15,798 bases of DNA from Oscillospiraceae bacterium (GTDB taxonomy: Bacteria > Bacillota_A > Clostridia > Oscillospirales > Ruminococcaceae). Below, piece after piece: positions 1-5,632 of this stretch. The position numbers and the translations under genes are program-made. Each line of letters begins with the position of its first letter. The stretch's first letter is position 1. Below the pieces are notes generated by a model that made no database searches, was not told the DNA's origin, and saw only the letters and a list, made by a program, of their open reading frames with translations. The stretch spans positions 1-15,798 of the forward strand of contig JAGAJA010000102.1 of NCBI GenBank assembly GCA_017829075.1. Direction: 5' to 3'.

Positions 1-2
1 AA

Positions 3-21
3 GTGCGACACGATGTCGCAC
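3..21. repeat. Perfect short stem-loop
   Basis: GTGCGACA (3-10) and TGTCGCAC (14-21) form a perfect 8-bp stem around a 3-nt CGA loop. No T-run follows on either strand, so it is not a clear terminator. It could be the end of an element that begins left of the window. Confidence 0.6.
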
Positions 22-45
22 AACTATGGGCAACATGGGAGAGGA

Positions 46-138
46 GTCTGAGGAGAAAACCGTAGGGGAAAGGGGGGAACGTCCGGTTTTTGTCGGATTT
101 TCTAAGTTCCCCCCTTTCCCCGAAGGGTTTCTCCTCAG
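46..138. repeat. Long imperfect inverted repeat
   Basis: The left arm (about 46-80) and right arm (106-138) are complementary over about 30 bases. The inner 16 bp (65-80 with 106-121) are perfect and purine/pyrimidine-asymmetric (GGGGAAAGGGGGGAAC). The outer 11-12 bp (CTGAGGAGAAA side) are near perfect, with a small internal mismatch between the two blocks. The 25-nt loop holds a small TCCG/CGGA stem (82-85, 94-97). A transcript from either strand would fold into one long hairpin. No ORF overlaps it. It resembles a MITE-like or folded intergenic element; no family is recognised. Confidence 0.65.
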
Positions 139-223
139 TCCCGTGCGAAAACAATTTATTCTTAATAGCTCCAAACAACAACTGTCTATATGATAAATCT
201 ATCATGTGAATTACATTTGAGTT

Positions 224-276
224 TGTCAATGCCTGCTCCGCAGTCATTGACAGGGGGAAAACTCTTGTTTTCCCCC
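224..276. repeat. Two adjoining perfect stem-loops
   Basis: The first stem is TGTCAATG (224-231) with CATTGACA (245-252), enclosing CTGC/GCAG. It is followed immediately by GGGGGAAAAC (253-262) with GTTTTCCCCC (267-276) around a 4-nt TCTT loop. The second hairpin could act as a terminator or 3' stabiliser, but no gene in the window ends next to it. Confidence 0.6.
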
Positions 277-324
277 GCGCCCCTTTAGCACTTCTGACGC
301 GTTTATGCGCTGCCGCGCTGAGTG

Positions 325-400
325 GTGGGGCGCTGCCCCACGCCCCGCTTCCTTTTGGAAGCCAAAAGGAAGCGAAAAGCATTTTCCGCGCTTCGCGCGG
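325..400. repeat. Cluster of three perfect stem-loops
   Basis: Three hairpins with 3-nt loops lie in 76 bases: GTGGGGC/GCCCCAC (325-341), a 13-bp stem CGCTTCCTTTTGG/CCAAAAGGAAGCG (346-374), and CCGCGC/GCGCGG (386-400). The last is part of a repeat that recurs at 11298-11351. Dense small palindromes of this kind are typical of REP-like intergenic elements. No protein-coding potential is evident here. Confidence 0.6.
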
Positions 401-439
401 AGCTGCAAACGGAAACCCGCTCGACAAATTCCAATTTAT
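384..439 (+). repeat. Interspersed repeat, copy A
   Basis: A 19-nt palindromic block (384-402) is followed by a 17-nt variable spacer and the 20-nt block CTCGACAAATTCCAATTTAT (420-439). The 20-nt block occurs exactly, in reverse complement, at 11298-11317. The palindromic block recurs there too, differing only by inversion of its 3-nt loop. Conserved blocks around a variable spacer indicate an intergenic repeat family rather than chance. Copy B has the opposite orientation. Confidence 0.7.
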
Positions 440-484
440 CAAATACCTAATCAAAACAGCGCTATTTTTTCCGGACAAAGAAAG

Positions 485-1056
485 GAGGCCGTATTGCGAT
501 TACCATGAATCTGAATTCAAGGTGTTCGTAATACGACCCCTCTCAATGAGTGAGTCAAAATATAAACCTTCTCTATAAGCCCGGAGTGAATAACGCTTTA
601 AATCAGCGGCTTTACCTGACCGAAACGGTGAACCGGAACGGATTTACCCGCAGAGCTTACCACCTCGTGCCACGCTAGAAACCGATTTCTGTGCGTTGCT
701 TCGGACTGTATTCTTCCGGAATACAACGGCTTTGCCAGCGCAAAGGAACCTTTTGCTTTCACCGGGTAAGTCCTCTGATCACCGCCGCATTTCGCTCATA
801 ACCGCACCTGCCCCGCGCTTTTACCCGTCTGCCGGACTTTGCAGAAAGGCTGTGATAGCTGAAATCCGCGTGTACCCGGAAATCAAAAGCGCATAATAAT
901 GCAATAATTGCTCATGCGTCAGTCGTCATGGACTGAAACCGCCGCACCGCCCCCCGCGAAAGCTCGCCGGGCAATACGCCGGAACATCGCTGTCCTTGTG
1001 CTCTTCCGTCAACGCTCCCGATAGCGATCTGGAAAGTACCAGTCCAACTTTATTCA
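485..1056 (-). ncRNA. Candidate stand-alone structured RNA (~570 nt)
   Basis: No reading frame here encodes a recognisable protein, yet the stretch behaves like a transcription unit on the minus strand. A TTGACA-17-TAAAAT promoter (1062-1090) predicts a start near 1055, and a long hairpin followed by a pyrimidine-rich tract (487-538, then CCTCCTTTCTTTG) could end it. Stems between include 1029-1042, 1013-1026, 920-935, a nested pair 890-918 (CGCAT/ATGCG around GCAA/TTGC), 707-725 (7 bp), 677-690 and 619-629. The predicted 5' end (TGAATAA on the minus strand, 1050-1056) complements TTATTCA at 587-593, which could close the molecule before the terminator. I could not match it to RNase P RNA, tmRNA, SRP RNA, 6S RNA or a riboswitch. 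Its size is in the range of OLE, ROOL or GOLLD RNAs, but I cannot test that from memory. Transcription is inferred. Confidence 0.5.
487..538 (-). terminator. Terminator-like hairpin ending the candidate RNA
   Basis: CGTATTGCGA (490-499) pairs with TCGTAATACG (526-535), including one G-U pair. The stem continues inward through ACC/GGT (502-504, 521-523) and TGAAT/ATTCA (506-510, 515-519) to a 4-nt loop, with GG/CC (487-488, 537-538) outside. On the minus strand the stem is followed by CCTCCTTTCTTTG, a pyrimidine tract weaker than a classic U-run. Confidence 0.5.
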
Positions 1057-1061
1057 TCTTT

Positions 1062-1090
1062 ATTTTATCGCATTTTATCCAAATTGTCAA
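1062..1090 (-). promoter_or_regulatory. Promoter for the candidate RNA
   Basis: On the minus strand TTGACA (1090-1085) lies 17 bp from TAAAAT (1067-1062), one mismatch from the sigma-70/SigA consensus, with a predicted start near 1055. A second TTGACA (1103-1098) and a TTGACG (1116-1111) lie just upstream at 13-nt steps. The promoter sits about 45 bp after the carboxypeptidase stop codon, where no further protein gene follows. Confidence 0.6.
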
Positions 1091-1133
1091 TACCTTTTGT
1101 CAAAATTCCGCGTCAAATCATGCATTTTTTCGC

Positions 1134-2306
1134 TCAGAAAGCTATTATTTCACTCAACACACGCAAAAGATACATTCCAAAGCTCATTTTTCGTACCTCC
1201 TCCTTTGCGACGATATCCGACCGGAACACCTCCATTCCGTCAAGCGTCACAAGATATTCGCCAAGAAACTGCCCCTTTTCCACCGGGGCTTCCGCCTTTT
1301 CCACAAAGGTGTACTCATACTTTACGCTGCCGGAGCGACCTTTCTTTATTATGCAGTCTTCTCCCTTGTGCTCCACTGTCGGCTGAACCGTGGAGTATTC
1401 TCCGCGATCAACCGGGATAGGTTTAAGCTCCCGGCTGTCTATCTCCGGGGTGAACCTCTCAAAGCCGGAAAATCCGTAATCCAGCAGTTCCTCCGCCCGG
1501 TCAAATCGCTCCGGGTCTTCGCCGCAGCCCAGAACCACCGCCACCAACCTCATATTCCCGCGTTCCGCGCAGGCGGCAAGGCAGCAGCCTGCTCCGTCGG
1601 TAGTTCCGGTTTTGCCACCGAGTATTCCGTCGTAATATCTTACCAACTTATTTGTATTGAGGAGCTGTGTTTCTCCTCCGCGGAGGTAATCAAGCCACGT
1701 CAGAAGCCAGCCCCGGTAATATTCCTTTTCCATAAGCTCCGCTGTCATTATGGCGATATCCTCCGCCGAGGAATAATGCCCCTCGTTGTCAAAGCCTACG
1801 CAGCCGGTGAATTTCGTGTTTTTCAGCCCCATTGTCCTTGCGCGCTTGTTCATCAGCTTCACGAACTGCGCCTCGCTGCCGGCGGTGTGCTCCGCAAGAG
1901 CAATGCAGGCGTCATTCGCCGAGCTTACGATGACCGCTTCCAGCAGCTCCGCCGCCGTCATTTCCTCCCCGGCTTCAAGCCAGATCACCGACCCCTCCGC
2001 CGAGGAAGCGTAGGAGGAGGCTTTCACCGTATCGGTGAGCTGCAATTCCCCGGAGTCAATGAAATCCGACAGCAACAGAAGCGTCATGACTTTGGTTATA
2101 CTAGCCATAGGCAGTTTATCCTGTGCGTTGACGGAATACAGTATCTGCCCGGTGCCTGCTTCCATGAGAACTGCCGCTTTTGGCGCGGTGGATACGCTGT
2201 TCTCTGCATCGTCTGCATTTCCGACGGTTTCGGCGCAGACGGTAAGCGGCAGCAGAAATACCGCCGCGCATACTATTATACAGATGATTTTCCGCAGTAT
2301 TTTCAT
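1134..2306 (-). CDS. D-alanyl-D-alanine carboxypeptidase (DacF/PBP5 type)
   Basis: This 390-residue serine peptidase of family S11 removes the terminal D-Ala from peptidoglycan pentapeptides outside the membrane. A signal peptide covers residues 1-25 (basic MKILRK, hydrophobic core, then VCA). The three active-site motifs are in order and properly spaced: S69-I-T-K72, S129-A-N131 and K232-T-G234. A PBP5-like C-terminal beta domain follows (about 275-370), and the protein ends in an amphipathic stretch (SFGMYLLRVLSEIIAF) like the membrane anchor of this family. ATG at 2306 is preceded by AAGGAG at 7-nt spacing. It is transcribed divergently from the metal operon, and no terminator is obvious before the downstream RNA promoter. 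Length and motifs fit dacA/dacB/dacF; which paralogue, and whether it is sporulation-specific, cannot be told here. Confidence 0.93.
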   Translation of the reverse strand: MKILRKIICIIVCAAVFLLPLTVCAETVGNADDAENSVSTAPKAAVLMEAGTGQILYSVNAQDKLPMASITKVMTLLLLSDFIDSGELQLTDTVKASSYASSAEGSVIWLEAGEEMTAAELLEAVIVSSANDACIALAEHTAGSEAQFVKLMNKRARTMGLKNTKFTGCVGFDNEGHYSSAEDIAIMTAELMEKEYYRGWLLTWLDYLRGGETQLLNTNKLVRYYDGILGGKTGTTDGAGCCLAACAERGNMRLVAVVLGCGEDPERFDRAEELLDYGFSGFERFTPEIDSRELKPIPVDRGEYSTVQPTVEHKGEDCIIKKGRSGSVKYEYTFVEKAEAPVEKGQFLGEYLVTLDGMEVFRSDIVAKEEVRKMSFGMYLLRVLSEIIAF

Positions 2307-2418
2307 AATTTTTCTCCTTGACTATTTCAGTTTAGGACAATCCTGTTTTACTTCTATGCTTCGTCGCCGCAAATTATGAAAAAACCGCAGTATTCTGCAA
2401 AAAAATCTTTTTACCCCC

Positions 2419-2447
2419 TTGACAAATTTATTTTTACGGTGTATAAT
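2419..2447 (+). promoter_or_regulatory. Consensus promoter of the metal-resistance operon
   Basis: TTGACA (2419-2424) and TATAAT (2442-2447) are both perfect and separated by 17 bp. The predicted start is near 2454. Such a strong core promoter suits a gene set normally held off by a repressor. Confidence 0.85.
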
Positions 2448-2459
2448 ACAATCAAACAG

Positions 2460-2475
2460 TTGAACAGTTGTTCAA
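2460..2475. promoter_or_regulatory. Probable ArsR/SmtB-family operator
   Basis: TTGAACA-GT-TGTTCAA is a perfect 7-2-7 inverted repeat lying just after the predicted transcription start and before the repressor gene. TGAACA-N2-TGTTCA-like palindromes are typical binding sites of SmtB/CadC-type repressors. The likely regulator is the product of the first gene, giving autorepression relieved by metal. Confidence 0.75.
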
Positions 2476-2503
2476 ACGATAAATTACAAAAGGGGGTCAT
2501 TCA

Positions 2504-2860
2504 ATGGAAAACGACGCGCCTCACTGCGATTTCATGCACGTCCACGCGGAAGCCGTTGCCCGGATAAATCAGCGTATGCCGGACGAGGATCTGCTGATAG
2601 ATCTGGCGGAGCTTTTCAAGGTTTTCGGCGACTCCACACGGATAAAGATACTGACTGCGCTCAGCACCGGAGAGCTTTGCGTATGCGATCTGTCGAAGCT
2701 GGTCGGAATGACGGTTTCCGCTGTATCTCATCAATTAAAGATCCTCCGGAATGCGAAGCTCGTGAGCTGCCGCCGGGACGGAAAGACAGTGTTCTATTCC
2801 CTTGCGGACAGCCACGTTACAACGATCATAATGCAGGGGCTTGAGCACGTCAACGAGTGA
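2504..2860 (+). CDS. CadC/SmtB-type metal-sensing repressor (ArsR family)
   Basis: A 118-residue winged-helix repressor, expected to leave its operator when it binds a soft or divalent metal. The fold is the ArsR type: DLAELFKVFGDSTRIKIL, the recognition-helix region VSAVSHQLKIL and the wing RRDGKTVFYSL. Two metal-site signatures are visible. ELCVCDL supplies C59 and C61 of the alpha-3 site, with C8 in the N-terminal arm as in CadC. D102, H104, H115 and E118 reproduce the spacing of the SmtB/CzrA alpha-5 zinc site (2, 11 and 3 residues apart). This points to cadmium/lead/zinc rather than arsenite, an assignment helped by the ATPase downstream. ATG at 2504 follows AAGGGGG at about 7 nt. It is the first gene of a four-gene operon, and its stop is closely followed by the next ribosome binding site. 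Confidence 0.9.
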   Translation: MENDAPHCDFMHVHAEAVARINQRMPDEDLLIDLAELFKVFGDSTRIKILTALSTGELCVCDLSKLVGMTVSAVSHQLKILRNAKLVSCRRDGKTVFYSLADSHVTTIIMQGLEHVNE

Positions 2861-2874
2861 AAGGAGCATAAATC

Positions 2875-3471
2875 ATGGACTTCTGGGACAAAATAGCCGG
2901 AGTTTACGACATTGCGGAAAGCATAAACGGCAGAGTTTACCGGGAAATGTGCGCGGTAACAAGCCGGCTCGTTGCGCATGGCGCAAAGGTTCTGGACTGC
3001 GCCGCGGGTACGGGGGAATTGTCAATAGCTGCCTGCTCAAAGGCTAAAGAGGTAATTTGCACCGATCTTTCGGAGAATATGCTGAAAACCGCCCGGAAAA
3101 AGGCTGACGCCCTCGGCGCGGACAACATCTCCTTCGACACACGAAATATATTCGACCTGAAAGATCCGGATAATACCTATGACGTAGTGATAGCCGGGAA
3201 TGTGCTGCACCTGCTGAAAAATCCCCAGGGAGCGGTGAAGGAGCTTATGCGGGTGCTGAAGCCCGGAGGAAAGCTGCTGCTTCCGACGTTCACCACAAAG
3301 GGTCACGGAGAAATGCTGATAAAGCTGTATACGCTTATTGGCTTCGATCCCTCTGAAAACTACACTCCTGCTGAATACAAAAGAATGCTGGAAGGCTGCA
3401 ACTGCGGAAGAGTAAGGACAAAGCTCATCAAGGGGCTTTTACCCTGCTGCTATGCGGTTATTGTTAAATAA
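2875..3471 (+). CDS. Class I SAM-dependent methyltransferase, substrate unknown
   Basis: A 198-residue methyltransferase of the Methyltransf_11/25 type. SAM-binding motif I is VLDCAAGTGE (39-48), followed by the acidic CTDLSENML (62-70), the YDVVIAGNVLHLL strand (102-114) and MRVLKPGGKLLLP (125-137). The N-terminus FWDKIAGVYDIAE resembles UbiE-like relatives. Eight cysteines are present, including C175, C177, C191 and C192 near the C-terminus, which might touch a metal or metalloid; that is speculation. It starts 14 bp after the repressor stop, with AAAGGAG overlapping that stop, and lies upstream of the HMA protein and the pump, so it is almost certainly co-transcribed and metal-induced. It is shorter than ArsM arsenite methyltransferases and lacks their recognisable layout. 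The substrate cannot be deduced. Confidence 0.85.
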   Translation: MDFWDKIAGVYDIAESINGRVYREMCAVTSRLVAHGAKVLDCAAGTGELSIAACSKAKEVICTDLSENMLKTARKKADALGADNISFDTRNIFDLKDPDNTYDVVIAGNVLHLLKNPQGAVKELMRVLKPGGKLLLPTFTTKGHGEMLIKLYTLIGFDPSENYTPAEYKRMLEGCNCGRVRTKLIKGLLPCCYAVIVK

Positions 3472-3488
3472 AGAAAGGAACTGCCGTT

Positions 3489-3707
3489 ATGAAAAAATCA
3501 TTCAAGCTTGTTGACCTCGACTGCGCACACTGCGCCGCGAAAATGGAGGACGCTATTAAAAAGCTCCCCGGTGTTACCTCTGCGTCCGTTAATTTCCTCA
3601 GCCAGAAGCTGACCATTGAAGCGCCGGACGAGGAATTTGACGGAGTATTGAAGCAGGCGGTGGACTGCATTAAGAAGGTCGAGCCGGACTGCACAGTTAA
3701 GCTGTAA
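3489..3707 (+). CDS. Free-standing heavy-metal-associated (HMA) domain protein
   Basis: A 72-residue single-domain HMA protein with the ferredoxin-like pattern of CopZ and of the N-terminal domains of P1B ATPases. The metal-binding loop is LDCAHCAAK, with C12 and C15 forming CxxC; the preceding aspartate (D11) is the form typical of zinc/cadmium ATPases such as ZntA. Two further cysteines occur at C55 and C64. The pump immediately downstream lacks an N-terminal HMA domain, so this protein probably acts as the detached metal-loading or regulatory domain, or as a soluble chaperone. ATG at 3489 is preceded by AAAGGAA at about 10 nt, 17 bp after the methyltransferase stop. Confidence 0.88.
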   Translation: MKKSFKLVDLDCAHCAAKMEDAIKKLPGVTSASVNFLSQKLTIEAPDEEFDGVLKQAVDCIKKVEPDCTVKL

Positions 3708-3730
3708 ATTGAAAGAATGAGGTTGGCAGC

Positions 3731-5632
3731 ATGAGCAAAAAACAGAAGAAAATGCTGGTGCGGATCATTGCTTCGGCGGTGATCTGGGGCGCTGGACTGG
3801 TGATATCGAATTTATTTCCTGCGGAGGAGCGGTTCTCAGTCTGGGGAATTATCCACCTTGTGATATTTGCTGCGGCTTATCTCACTATCGGCTGGGATAT
3901 CCTCTGGAAAGCCGTCCGCAATATCGCCAACGGGCAGGTTTTTGACGAAAACTTCCTCATGGCGATAGCTTCTATCGGCGCAATGGTGATCGGGGAATAT
4001 TCCGAGGGCGTTGCAGTTATCATCTTCTATCAGGTCGGAGAGCTTTTCCAGAGCATTGCGGTGGGGAAGTCCCGGCGGTCTATCGCTGAGATGATCGACA
4101 TAAATCCGGAATACGCCAATGTTGAGCGGCTCGGCGAGGTATCGGAGGTATCTCCGGAGGAGGTTGCCGCCGGCGAGATTATAGTGATCCGCCCCGGTGA
4201 AAGAATTCCGCTGGACGGAACGGTTATTTCCGGCTCGTCTGAACTCAACACCGCCGCCCTCACCGGAGAGAGCGCACTGCGCGCCGTTTCCGAGGGGGAC
4301 GAGGTAATAAGCGGCTGTATCAATACTAACGGACTGCTCAGGGTGGAGGTGTCCCGCCCCTACTCCGATTCCACTGTGGCGCGTATTCTGGAGCTGGTGG
4401 AGAATTCTTCAGAGAACAAGGCGAAAACCGAGAATTTCATCACGAAATTTGCCCGTATCTATACTCCTATCGTGGTTTTCAGCGCGTTAGCCCTTGCGAT
4501 TATTCCCGGTCTGATCGGAGCGGCGCTTTCCGGGTGGACGGATTATTCCGGCTGGTCGGAATGGATATATCGTGCGCTGACGTTCCTTGTGGTTTCCTGT
4601 CCGTGCGCGTTGGTCATTTCAGTTCCGCTGTCCTATTTCGGAGGAATTGGCGGTGCCTCCCGGCATGGTATCATGATAAAGGGCGCGAATTATCTTGAGC
4701 AGCTTGCAAAGGCGCAGACCTTTGTTTTCGACAAGACCGGAACTCTTACAAAGGGAAGCTTTGCGGTGACTGAGATAGTTCCAAGCAATATGACCGAAGA
4801 GGAACTGCTGTCGGTGTGCGCTGCTGCGGAAAGCTATTCCACCCACCCGATAGCCCAGTCGATAGTTGCCGAGGCGAAGAAACGTTCGCTTGATACCGCC
4901 GCCGAGAATGCGCAGGAGATCGCCGGATTCGGGGTCAAGGCTTATGTGAACGGCAGGGTGGTTCTTGCCGGAAACAGCCGGCTTATGGAGCGGGATAATA
5001 TCTCCGCGCCGGAGGTAAGTTCCCCCGGAACTGTTGTTCACTGCGCGGTTGACGGGAAATACGCGGGATATATCGTGATATCTGACGAGATCAAGTCAAA
5101 CACCCCCGCTGCGGTAGCCGCGCTGAAAAACCTTTGCGGCGCAAGGACTGTAATGCTAACCGGCGACAGAAAGACCGCCGCCGAAGCGATAGCCAAAACC
5201 GCAGGAATAGACGAATTCCGCGCGGAGCTGCTGCCGGACGGCAAGGTTGCTCAGGTGGAAACGCTCTATAATTCAAAGCCTCCCAAGACGACTCTGGTGT
5301 TTGTCGGCGACGGAATGAACGACGCACCCGCCCTCGCCCGCGCTGATGTGGGCATCGCAATGGGGGCAATGGGAAGCGACGCGGCGATAGAAGCTGCGGA
5401 TATCGTGCTCATGAACGACAATATCGAAAGCCTGCCGCTGGCGGTGCGTATCGCCCGCAAGACTCATTCCATTGTTATGCAGAATATTATTCTGGCGATC
5501 GGGGTAAAGGTTCTGATCATGATTCTTACCGCGTTTGGTATAGGAAATATGTGGCTGGCGGTTTTCGGCGACGTTGGAGTTGCAATAATCGCTATCCTCA
5601 ATGCAATGAGAGCAATGCGTATAAAAAAGTAA
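3731..5632 (+). CDS. cadA: Cd2+/Zn2+-exporting P1B-type ATPase (ZntA/CadA family)
   Basis: A 633-residue heavy-metal efflux pump of the plasma membrane. Family landmarks in order are four hydrophobic helices before residue 110, the actuator motif TGES (178-181), the ion-path motif C290-P-C292, the phosphorylation site D334-KTGT, an HP motif in STHPIA (H372-P373), TGDR (477-480) and the hinge GDGMND (526-531). The last two helices carry K593 and D614 (GVKVLIM, FGDVGVA), matching the Lys/Asp pair that defines the zinc/cadmium/lead subgroup P1B-2. No CxxC HMA domain precedes the first helix: the protein begins MSKKQKKMLVRII, and the HMA domain is a separate gene 23 bp upstream. The ribosome binding site (GAGG, 8 nt from ATG) is weaker than its neighbours'. 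It is the last gene of the operon. The symbol could equally be zntA. Confidence 0.95.
   Translation: MSKKQKKMLVRIIASAVIWGAGLVISNLFPAEERFSVWGIIHLVIFAAAYLTIGWDILWKAVRNIANGQVFDENFLMAIASIGAMVIGEYSEGVAVIIFYQVGELFQSIAVGKSRRSIAEMIDINPEYANVERLGEVSEVSPEEVAAGEIIVIRPGERIPLDGTVISGSSELNTAALTGESALRAVSEGDEVISGCINTNGLLRVEVSRPYSDSTVARILELVENSSENKAKTENFITKFARIYTPIVVFSALALAIIPGLIGAALSGWTDYSGWSEWIYRALTFLVVSCPCALVISVPLSYFGGIGGASRHGIMIKGANYLEQLAKAQTFVFDKTGTLTKGSFAVTEIVPSNMTEEELLSVCAAAESYSTHPIAQSIVAEAKKRSLDTAAENAQEIAGFGVKAYVNGRVVLAGNSRLMERDNISAPEVSSPGTVVHCAVDGKYAGYIVISDEIKSNTPAAVAALKNLCGARTVMLTGDRKTAAEAIAKTAGIDEFRAELLPDGKVAQVETLYNSKPPKTTLVFVGDGMNDAPALARADVGIAMGAMGSDAAIEAADIVLMNDNIESLPLAVRIARKTHSIVMQNIILAIGVKVLIMILTAFGIGNMWLAVFGDVGVAIIAILNAMRAMRIKK

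Follow-up and report, generated by a model that had tools for sequence, protein, structure and literature searches.

Positions 476-1090 of the minus strand of the window (the whole 15,798-nt stretch of DNA that was analysed) almost certainly hold an RNA gene. The best explanation, which we consider probable, is a free-standing, promoter-bearing gene of a genus-level RNA family outside Rfam 15, with a product that would act in trans as the core of a ribonucleoprotein or as a regulator recognised by protein. By the searches made, the predicted RNA is a new family within a known kind, the large free-standing bacterial RNAs, and comparison of 38 copies shows the conserved fold of the putative promoter-bearing unit to be under selection. 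A new large noncoding RNA had been proposed here by the sequence-only reading, and the proposal is strongly supported by compensatory changes, the promoter, the end hairpin, the lack of a conserved frame and the lack of an Rfam match. To our knowledge, few large free-standing bacterial RNAs have conserved complex folds, and several of these have no known job. The new RNA occurs once in each of 37 of the 43 sampled genomes of its genus, with a conserved strong promoter and two compact domains, and its apparent restriction to that genus would open the emergence of a new structured RNA to testing. Coordinates of all features are given in Table 1.

Table 1. Predicted features of the RNA gene and its upstream neighbour, in window coordinates.
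Feature	Position	Strand	Remarks
Structured RNA gene (predicted)	476..1055	-	about 575-580 nt; from fold z and core model R1
-35 hexamer TTGACA	1085..1090	-	11/12 to consensus jointly with -10
-10 hexamer TAAAAT	1062..1067	-	17-nt spacer from -35
5' hairpin CGCU-AUCGGG-AGCG	1013..1026	-	alignment columns 152-165
Domain A, junction	808..893	-	from motif and covariation
Strand CAGCURUCACA	861-851	-	conserved, nearly invariant; unpaired in domain A model
Domain A hairpin, loop AAAGUCC	850-823	-	loop pairs outside with GGGC
Pseudoknot GUCC/GGGC	837-834 / 813-810	-	within 810..837, domain A
Domain B, long interrupted hairpin	589..698	-	in all 38 copies
Domain B closing helix 1	AACGC 697-693 / GCGUU 596-592	-	
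Domain B closing helix 2	AAAUCGGU 688-681 / GCUGAUUU 607-600	-	
Terminator-like hairpin	476..544	-	conserved apical half; tail CUUUCUUUG
dacA (D-alanyl-D-alanine carboxypeptidase)	1134..2306	-	PF00768; same-strand upstream neighbour, outside the RNA

Searches and distribution

Related contigs were gathered by way of the neighbouring DacA protein, and the RNA was compared by BLAST with 80 of these loci. Five of the 80 DacA-linked loci carry the RNA, two of them at about 4.5 and 9 kb from dacA. The closest relative (L001) has a DacA 94% identical and an RNA 92% identical to those of the window, and its genus was therefore taken as that of the window; the named relatives of this genus belong to the Oscillospiraceae/Clostridia. 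A covariance model of the 3' core built from seven sequences (R1) found one copy in each of the 37 genus genomes mentioned above. The surroundings of these copies were retrieved and, with the window added, they form the set of 38 copies; a 38-sequence model was designated R2. The copies were gathered by a model of domain B, so the presence of that domain is preselected among them, and some are near-duplicates. The other six genus genomes gave no match with R1, nor with R2 under laxer filters, and the RNA is not universal in the genus unless missing assembly explains these six.

Searches of the order and the family were run with strict filters, under which distant relatives may be missed: R1 matched 2 of 394 genomes of the order and R2 matched 5 of 396 of the family, and these matches come from five distinct genomes, all within the 43 of the genus. 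BLAST of the RNA against 247 family genomes gave six with matches at E ≤0.001, four of which are chance-like stretches of 22-29 bases in genomes where R1 and R2 found nothing. A further model, R3, was run with laxer filters on 40 genomes (G001, the six unmatched genus members and 33 of the family) and matched 12 at E ≤1, convincingly only G001; of its 14 weaker matches five were inspected and look by eye like coding DNA. In 38 further loci, whose DacA is less identical, R3 had no match. On these searches the family is apparently restricted to one genus, and the correlation between RNA and DacA distances in 17 genomes (Mantel r 0.40, 14/2000 permutations) fits vertical descent. A GC-rich spacer at window positions 253-402 also matched loci of three other genomes (68.6% over 172 bases with L125/L094; 29-41 bases at 85-97% with L156/L002, L009 and L017) and is possibly a dispersed repeat.

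The comparison with Rfam 15 that the sequence-only reading had suggested brought no family up to gathering score, either in the window or among 20 homologue loci. A permissive scan of window positions 1-1250 (E ≤10) gave 24 matches, all far below cut-off: the best were microRNA models on a hairpin at 44-142, outside the RNA (E 0.0005), and two microRNA models fell on the end hairpin (E 0.65 and 3.8). Permissive scanning of four homologue loci gave seven matches. The best of them, to SQ2397, lies immediately past domain B of L112 and scores 35 bits where the cut-off is 100 (E 0.0043); Srn266, rox1 and microRNA models come next. All permissive matches were judged to be chance. The hairpin at 44-142 is a long inverted repeat with arms of about 31 bases, a few mismatches and a loop of about 27 bases, which the scan rates as microRNA-hairpin-like; BLAST found no copy of it in the other retrieved loci.

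Membership of OLE, ROOL or GOLLD, which had been considered earlier, was not borne out, as all three were absent at gathering score from the window and 20 loci and also from the permissive scans of positions 1-1250 and four loci, and the RNA sits among chromosomal housekeeping genes. SRP RNA models had no match in the window, the 20 homologue loci or the permissive scans, and a tRNA scan of the window found none. RNase P is present in 17 of 19 genomes, tmRNA scores over cut-off in 30 of the 43 genus genomes, and 36 of the 43 have a match to the 6S model (8 over cut-off), each sited elsewhere than this RNA; these separate copies speak against identity with RNase P, tmRNA or 6S. In 28 of the 36 genomes with a 6S match the score lies below the Rfam cut-off, perhaps reflecting a diverged 6S hardly covered by the model. 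The raiA/ModT model (RF03072) matched neither window positions 1-1250 at E ≤10 nor, at gathering score, the window and the 20 loci. Over the genus it matched 0 of 40 genomes, with a weak control (1 of 14 matched, below cut-off), and over the family 0 of 247, where no control matched either. A literature search, with subscription journals and supplements outside its scope, found no description of this RNA.

Promoter, extent and fold of the predicted transcript

The near-consensus promoter that had been read on the minus strand at 1062-1090 stands, and similar sites are found in the homologues. Sites were scored against TTGACA plus either TATAAT or TAAAAT as the second hexamer. In each of the 38 copies (window included) a promoter-like site reaches 10 of 12 or better; the score is 11-12 in 36 copies, and the spacer is 17 nt long in 37. 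Among 553 random 800-nt stretches drawn from these loci, 54 reach 11 and 159 reach 10. In window positions 1-2500 the same scan gave six promoter-like sites, compared with 2.1 in shuffles. The RNA is presumably transcribed, with a start predicted from the promoter spacing at about 1055. Elsewhere in the window, a perfect TTGACA-17-TATAAT lies ahead of genes for an ArsR-family regulator, a methyltransferase, an HMA-domain protein and a P-type ATPase (2419-5632), a probable metal-efflux operon.

The structured minus-strand unit of about 570 nt that had been described was recovered by folding: 572 nt of this strand fold at -208.6 kcal/mol (z -3.26), which none of 100 shuffles equals. Automatic end-calling, possible in 36 of the 38 copies, gave RNA lengths of 288-786 nt; a later hairpin was chosen at some loci, so individual lengths are rough. 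The terminal hairpin with pyrimidine tail was likewise present, spanning 544-480 with the tail reaching to about 476 (from sequence and fold), although the tail CUUUCUUUG is imperfect. It is absent from the output of the terminator scan because that scan accepts loops of 3-8 only. By pattern search, an end hairpin of the GUAU-ACGA type occurs in 30 of the 38 copies. A shared AAATTATCG-TAATTTT-like stretch behind domain B replaces the usual end hairpin in L141, L146, L148, L150 and L154, and the same stretch stands behind domain B in L145, which is partly masked.

Conserved domains and covariation

Domain B was evaluated over 34 pairs in 36 distinct sequences. Of its cells 89.3% are paired, compared with 30-37% when partners are slid. 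Its 15 double-changed pairs were reached by 1 of 500 shuffles and its pair types were matched by 2 of 500, and the covariation score of 0.256 (0.194 in shuffles) was attained by none of the 500. The end hairpin, evaluated in 30 of the 38 copies (28 distinct sequences, 15 pairs), has 93.1% of cells paired as opposed to 28-46% when slid, and 47 double-changed cells against 10 in shuffles, with 0 of 500 shuffles as high; on weaker measures, its double-changed pairs were reached by 44 of 500 shuffles and its pair types by 172 of 500. Because the sequences are related, shuffle counts in these and the following tests are not to be read as probabilities.

Domain A is composed of an outer helix, an inner hairpin, the strand CAGCURUCACA and the hairpin with loop AAAGUCC. 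It was found by motif in 33 of the 38 copies, and L147 was added by R3, making 34; neither the motif search nor R3 found it in L126, L127, L132 or L133. The shortest stretch ahead of domain B, 108 nt, is that of L126 and L127. For the statistics on 33 of the 38 copies the dacA clade, misaligned at the outer helix, was left out. Over 24 pairs in 33 sequences, 89.2% of cells are paired (35-48% with slid partners), 14 pairs have changes on both sides, the covariation score is 0.351 compared with 0.183 in shuffles and is attained by 0 of 500, and the pair types were matched by 3 of 500. The pseudoknot has 92.4% of its cells paired; its first pair, in 33 copies, is G-C in 28, A-U in 4 and G-U in 1, and its second pair is broken in four copies that have GACC instead of GUCC. 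A pairing of UCAGC in domain A with GCUGA in domain B was considered and rejected, because several copies carry GCCGA, a variant that keeps the local helix while UCAGC is invariant. Further towards the 5' end, UAUCGGGA of the 5' hairpin occurs in 21 of the 38 copies, at most 520 nt ahead of domain B, and the stem enclosing the loop AUCGGG covaries among seven sequences.

A covariation scan made without reference to structure placed model pairs at ranks 1, 3, 5, 8, 12 and 16, among others, rank 16 being the first pair of the pseudoknot. Many of the top 45 pairs lie outside the model, and their mean paired fraction is 0.50, compared with 0.38 in the lower half. Compensatory changes among homologues, named by the sequence-only reading as the check to be made, are thus seen beyond the controls in domain A, domain B and the end hairpin, and by this measure the copies appear as a new family of structured RNA. 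The helix proposed to close the 5' and 3' ends (1050-1056 with 587-593) was not confirmed: in that form it is confined to the window and a 92%-identical relative (L155), 27 of 200 shuffles equal the seven-pair run of the window, and in every copy at least 10 of 200 shuffles do as well. The ends of 17 of the 38 copies can pair over at least seven bases, which is no better than shuffles.

Alternative readings and comparison with known RNAs

That there is no RNA gene here, but a fold arisen by chance, a mobile repeat or a protein-coding gene on one or other strand, is hardly credible. A frame is open from the predicted start through the end of domain B in four of the 38 copies, and between some pairs of copies the longest frames have 13-58 aa in common; the open frames, however, differ in strand and frame, the sharing is nowhere family-wide, each genome has one match, and the covariation in domains A and B and the end hairpin contradicts this explanation. 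The longest ATG frame is 36 aa on either strand of the 616-nt stretch of the window and ranges from 9 to 108 aa among the copies, and in domain B any single frame is open in at most 15 of 38. The earlier observation that no frame resembles a protein extends to the homologues: no intact conserved frame was found among the 38 copies. As to mobility, BLAST with the RNA of the window matched no phage record and only one plasmid sequence, weakly, over 51 bases (E 0.7); a pattern scan of viral sequences gave three matches, in surroundings that by eye are coding phage DNA, and R2 found nothing on them. A cis-acting element, whether a leader or attenuator for some gene downstream or a structured 3' UTR belonging to dacA, is also very improbable. 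It would accord with a predicted start 82-123 nt behind same-strand dacA in five copies, with a mechanical sense frame beginning about 13 nt past the called end in L123, and with holB lying in sense 1.2-4.7 kb behind the RNA in 15 copies. Against this, the RNA has its own promoter, 28 of the 33 copies with an identified upstream gene have it in divergent orientation, and in the overall comparison no single sense gene lies directly behind the RNA in all clades. Within 1 kb upstream stand thrS (18 of 38 copies, divergent), dacA (6, same strand), dcd (5, divergent, one copy shared with dacA) and, all divergent, purD (2), GH130 (2) and secA (1); five copies have none of these six genes there, and some of their contigs end within this distance. 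The upstream neighbour varies by clade, so the RNA is not the leader of one gene. The location downstream of a dac gene, expected from the window, holds for the six copies just mentioned and is a minority arrangement, not the general context. A T-box of thrS was ruled out because the RNA is divergent from that gene.

Strong divergence from a known family (raiA/ModT, OLE, 6S, tmRNA or RNase P) is another reading, which we regard as improbable. In its favour, raiA/ModT RNA also has a sigA promoter, a terminator and pseudoknots (PMC11706538), and the raiA search, with its weak control, gave no match in the 40 genus genomes covered, of 43. The evidence to the contrary is that no family reached gathering score in the window and 20 loci, that none of these families appeared in the permissive scans, and that RNase P, tmRNA and 6S are accounted for elsewhere in the proportions given above. 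A trans-acting regulator working without a stable protein partner, either as a small-molecule sensor or by pairing with mRNA through its conserved unpaired strands, is the main rival, though unlikely. Nearly invariant unpaired strands and pseudoknots are both usual in aptamers. Domain A is aptamer-like in this respect: its almost invariant CAGCURUCACA is left unpaired by the model, and its pseudoknot covaries. The RNA gene is also a free-standing unit. The permissive scan of window positions 1-1250 (E ≤10), on the other hand, showed no riboswitch family, and a base-pairing RNA would presumably need less than two large domains.

Under the preferred explanation, the RNA very probably acts in trans, as it has no constantly linked gene. 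The conservation of two internal-loop domains and a pseudoknot, rather than of one pairing seed, suggests a shaped RNA bound by protein, and we slightly favour a ribonucleoprotein core over an RNA that works by base-pairing or by sensing a ligand. A sigma-A-type promoter and the terminator-like hairpin would delimit a free-standing transcript, and the folded RNA may then act in trans as the architectural core of a ribonucleoprotein or as a regulator that a protein recognises. The essential core would be domain B; domain A, present in 34 of 38 copies, would serve as an accessory module stiffened by its own pseudoknot, and the linkers would be tolerated insertions. A bolder version, which we put forward tentatively and hold to be rather doubtful, is that of a genus-specific housekeeping-type RNA at the centre of a ribonucleoprotein or of an assembly of RNA alone. 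Its function would be one not known from other organisms, and the RNA would have arisen and then spread through most of the species in the genus.

Several known RNAs offer points of comparison. Like 6S RNA, the new RNA is a single structured RNA per genome; unlike it, it coexists with a 6S match elsewhere in 36 of the 43 genomes. ROOL and GOLLD are described (PMC12286853) as large, multi-domain RNAs of unknown function, ROOL being pseudoknotted, which occur in phages and prophages, often near tRNA islands. The new RNA differs from both in lying among housekeeping genes and in having no phage-record match. The raiA/ModT RNA of Bacillota is similar in architecture, with its own sigA promoter, terminator and pseudoknots (PMC11706538), as the new RNA has a sigA-type promoter (recognised from sequence), a terminator-like hairpin and a pseudoknot; the two differ in that model RF03072 has 209 positions, whereas the new RNA is about 290-790 nt long with other conserved sequence. 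OLE RNA is an elaborately folded component of a ribonucleoprotein, about 600 nt long, in Gram-positive anaerobes. The new RNA lacks an Rfam match to OLE, but it resembles OLE in length, in the elaborateness of its fold and in its type of host, and the OLE ribonucleoprotein serves as the template for the mechanism proposed here.
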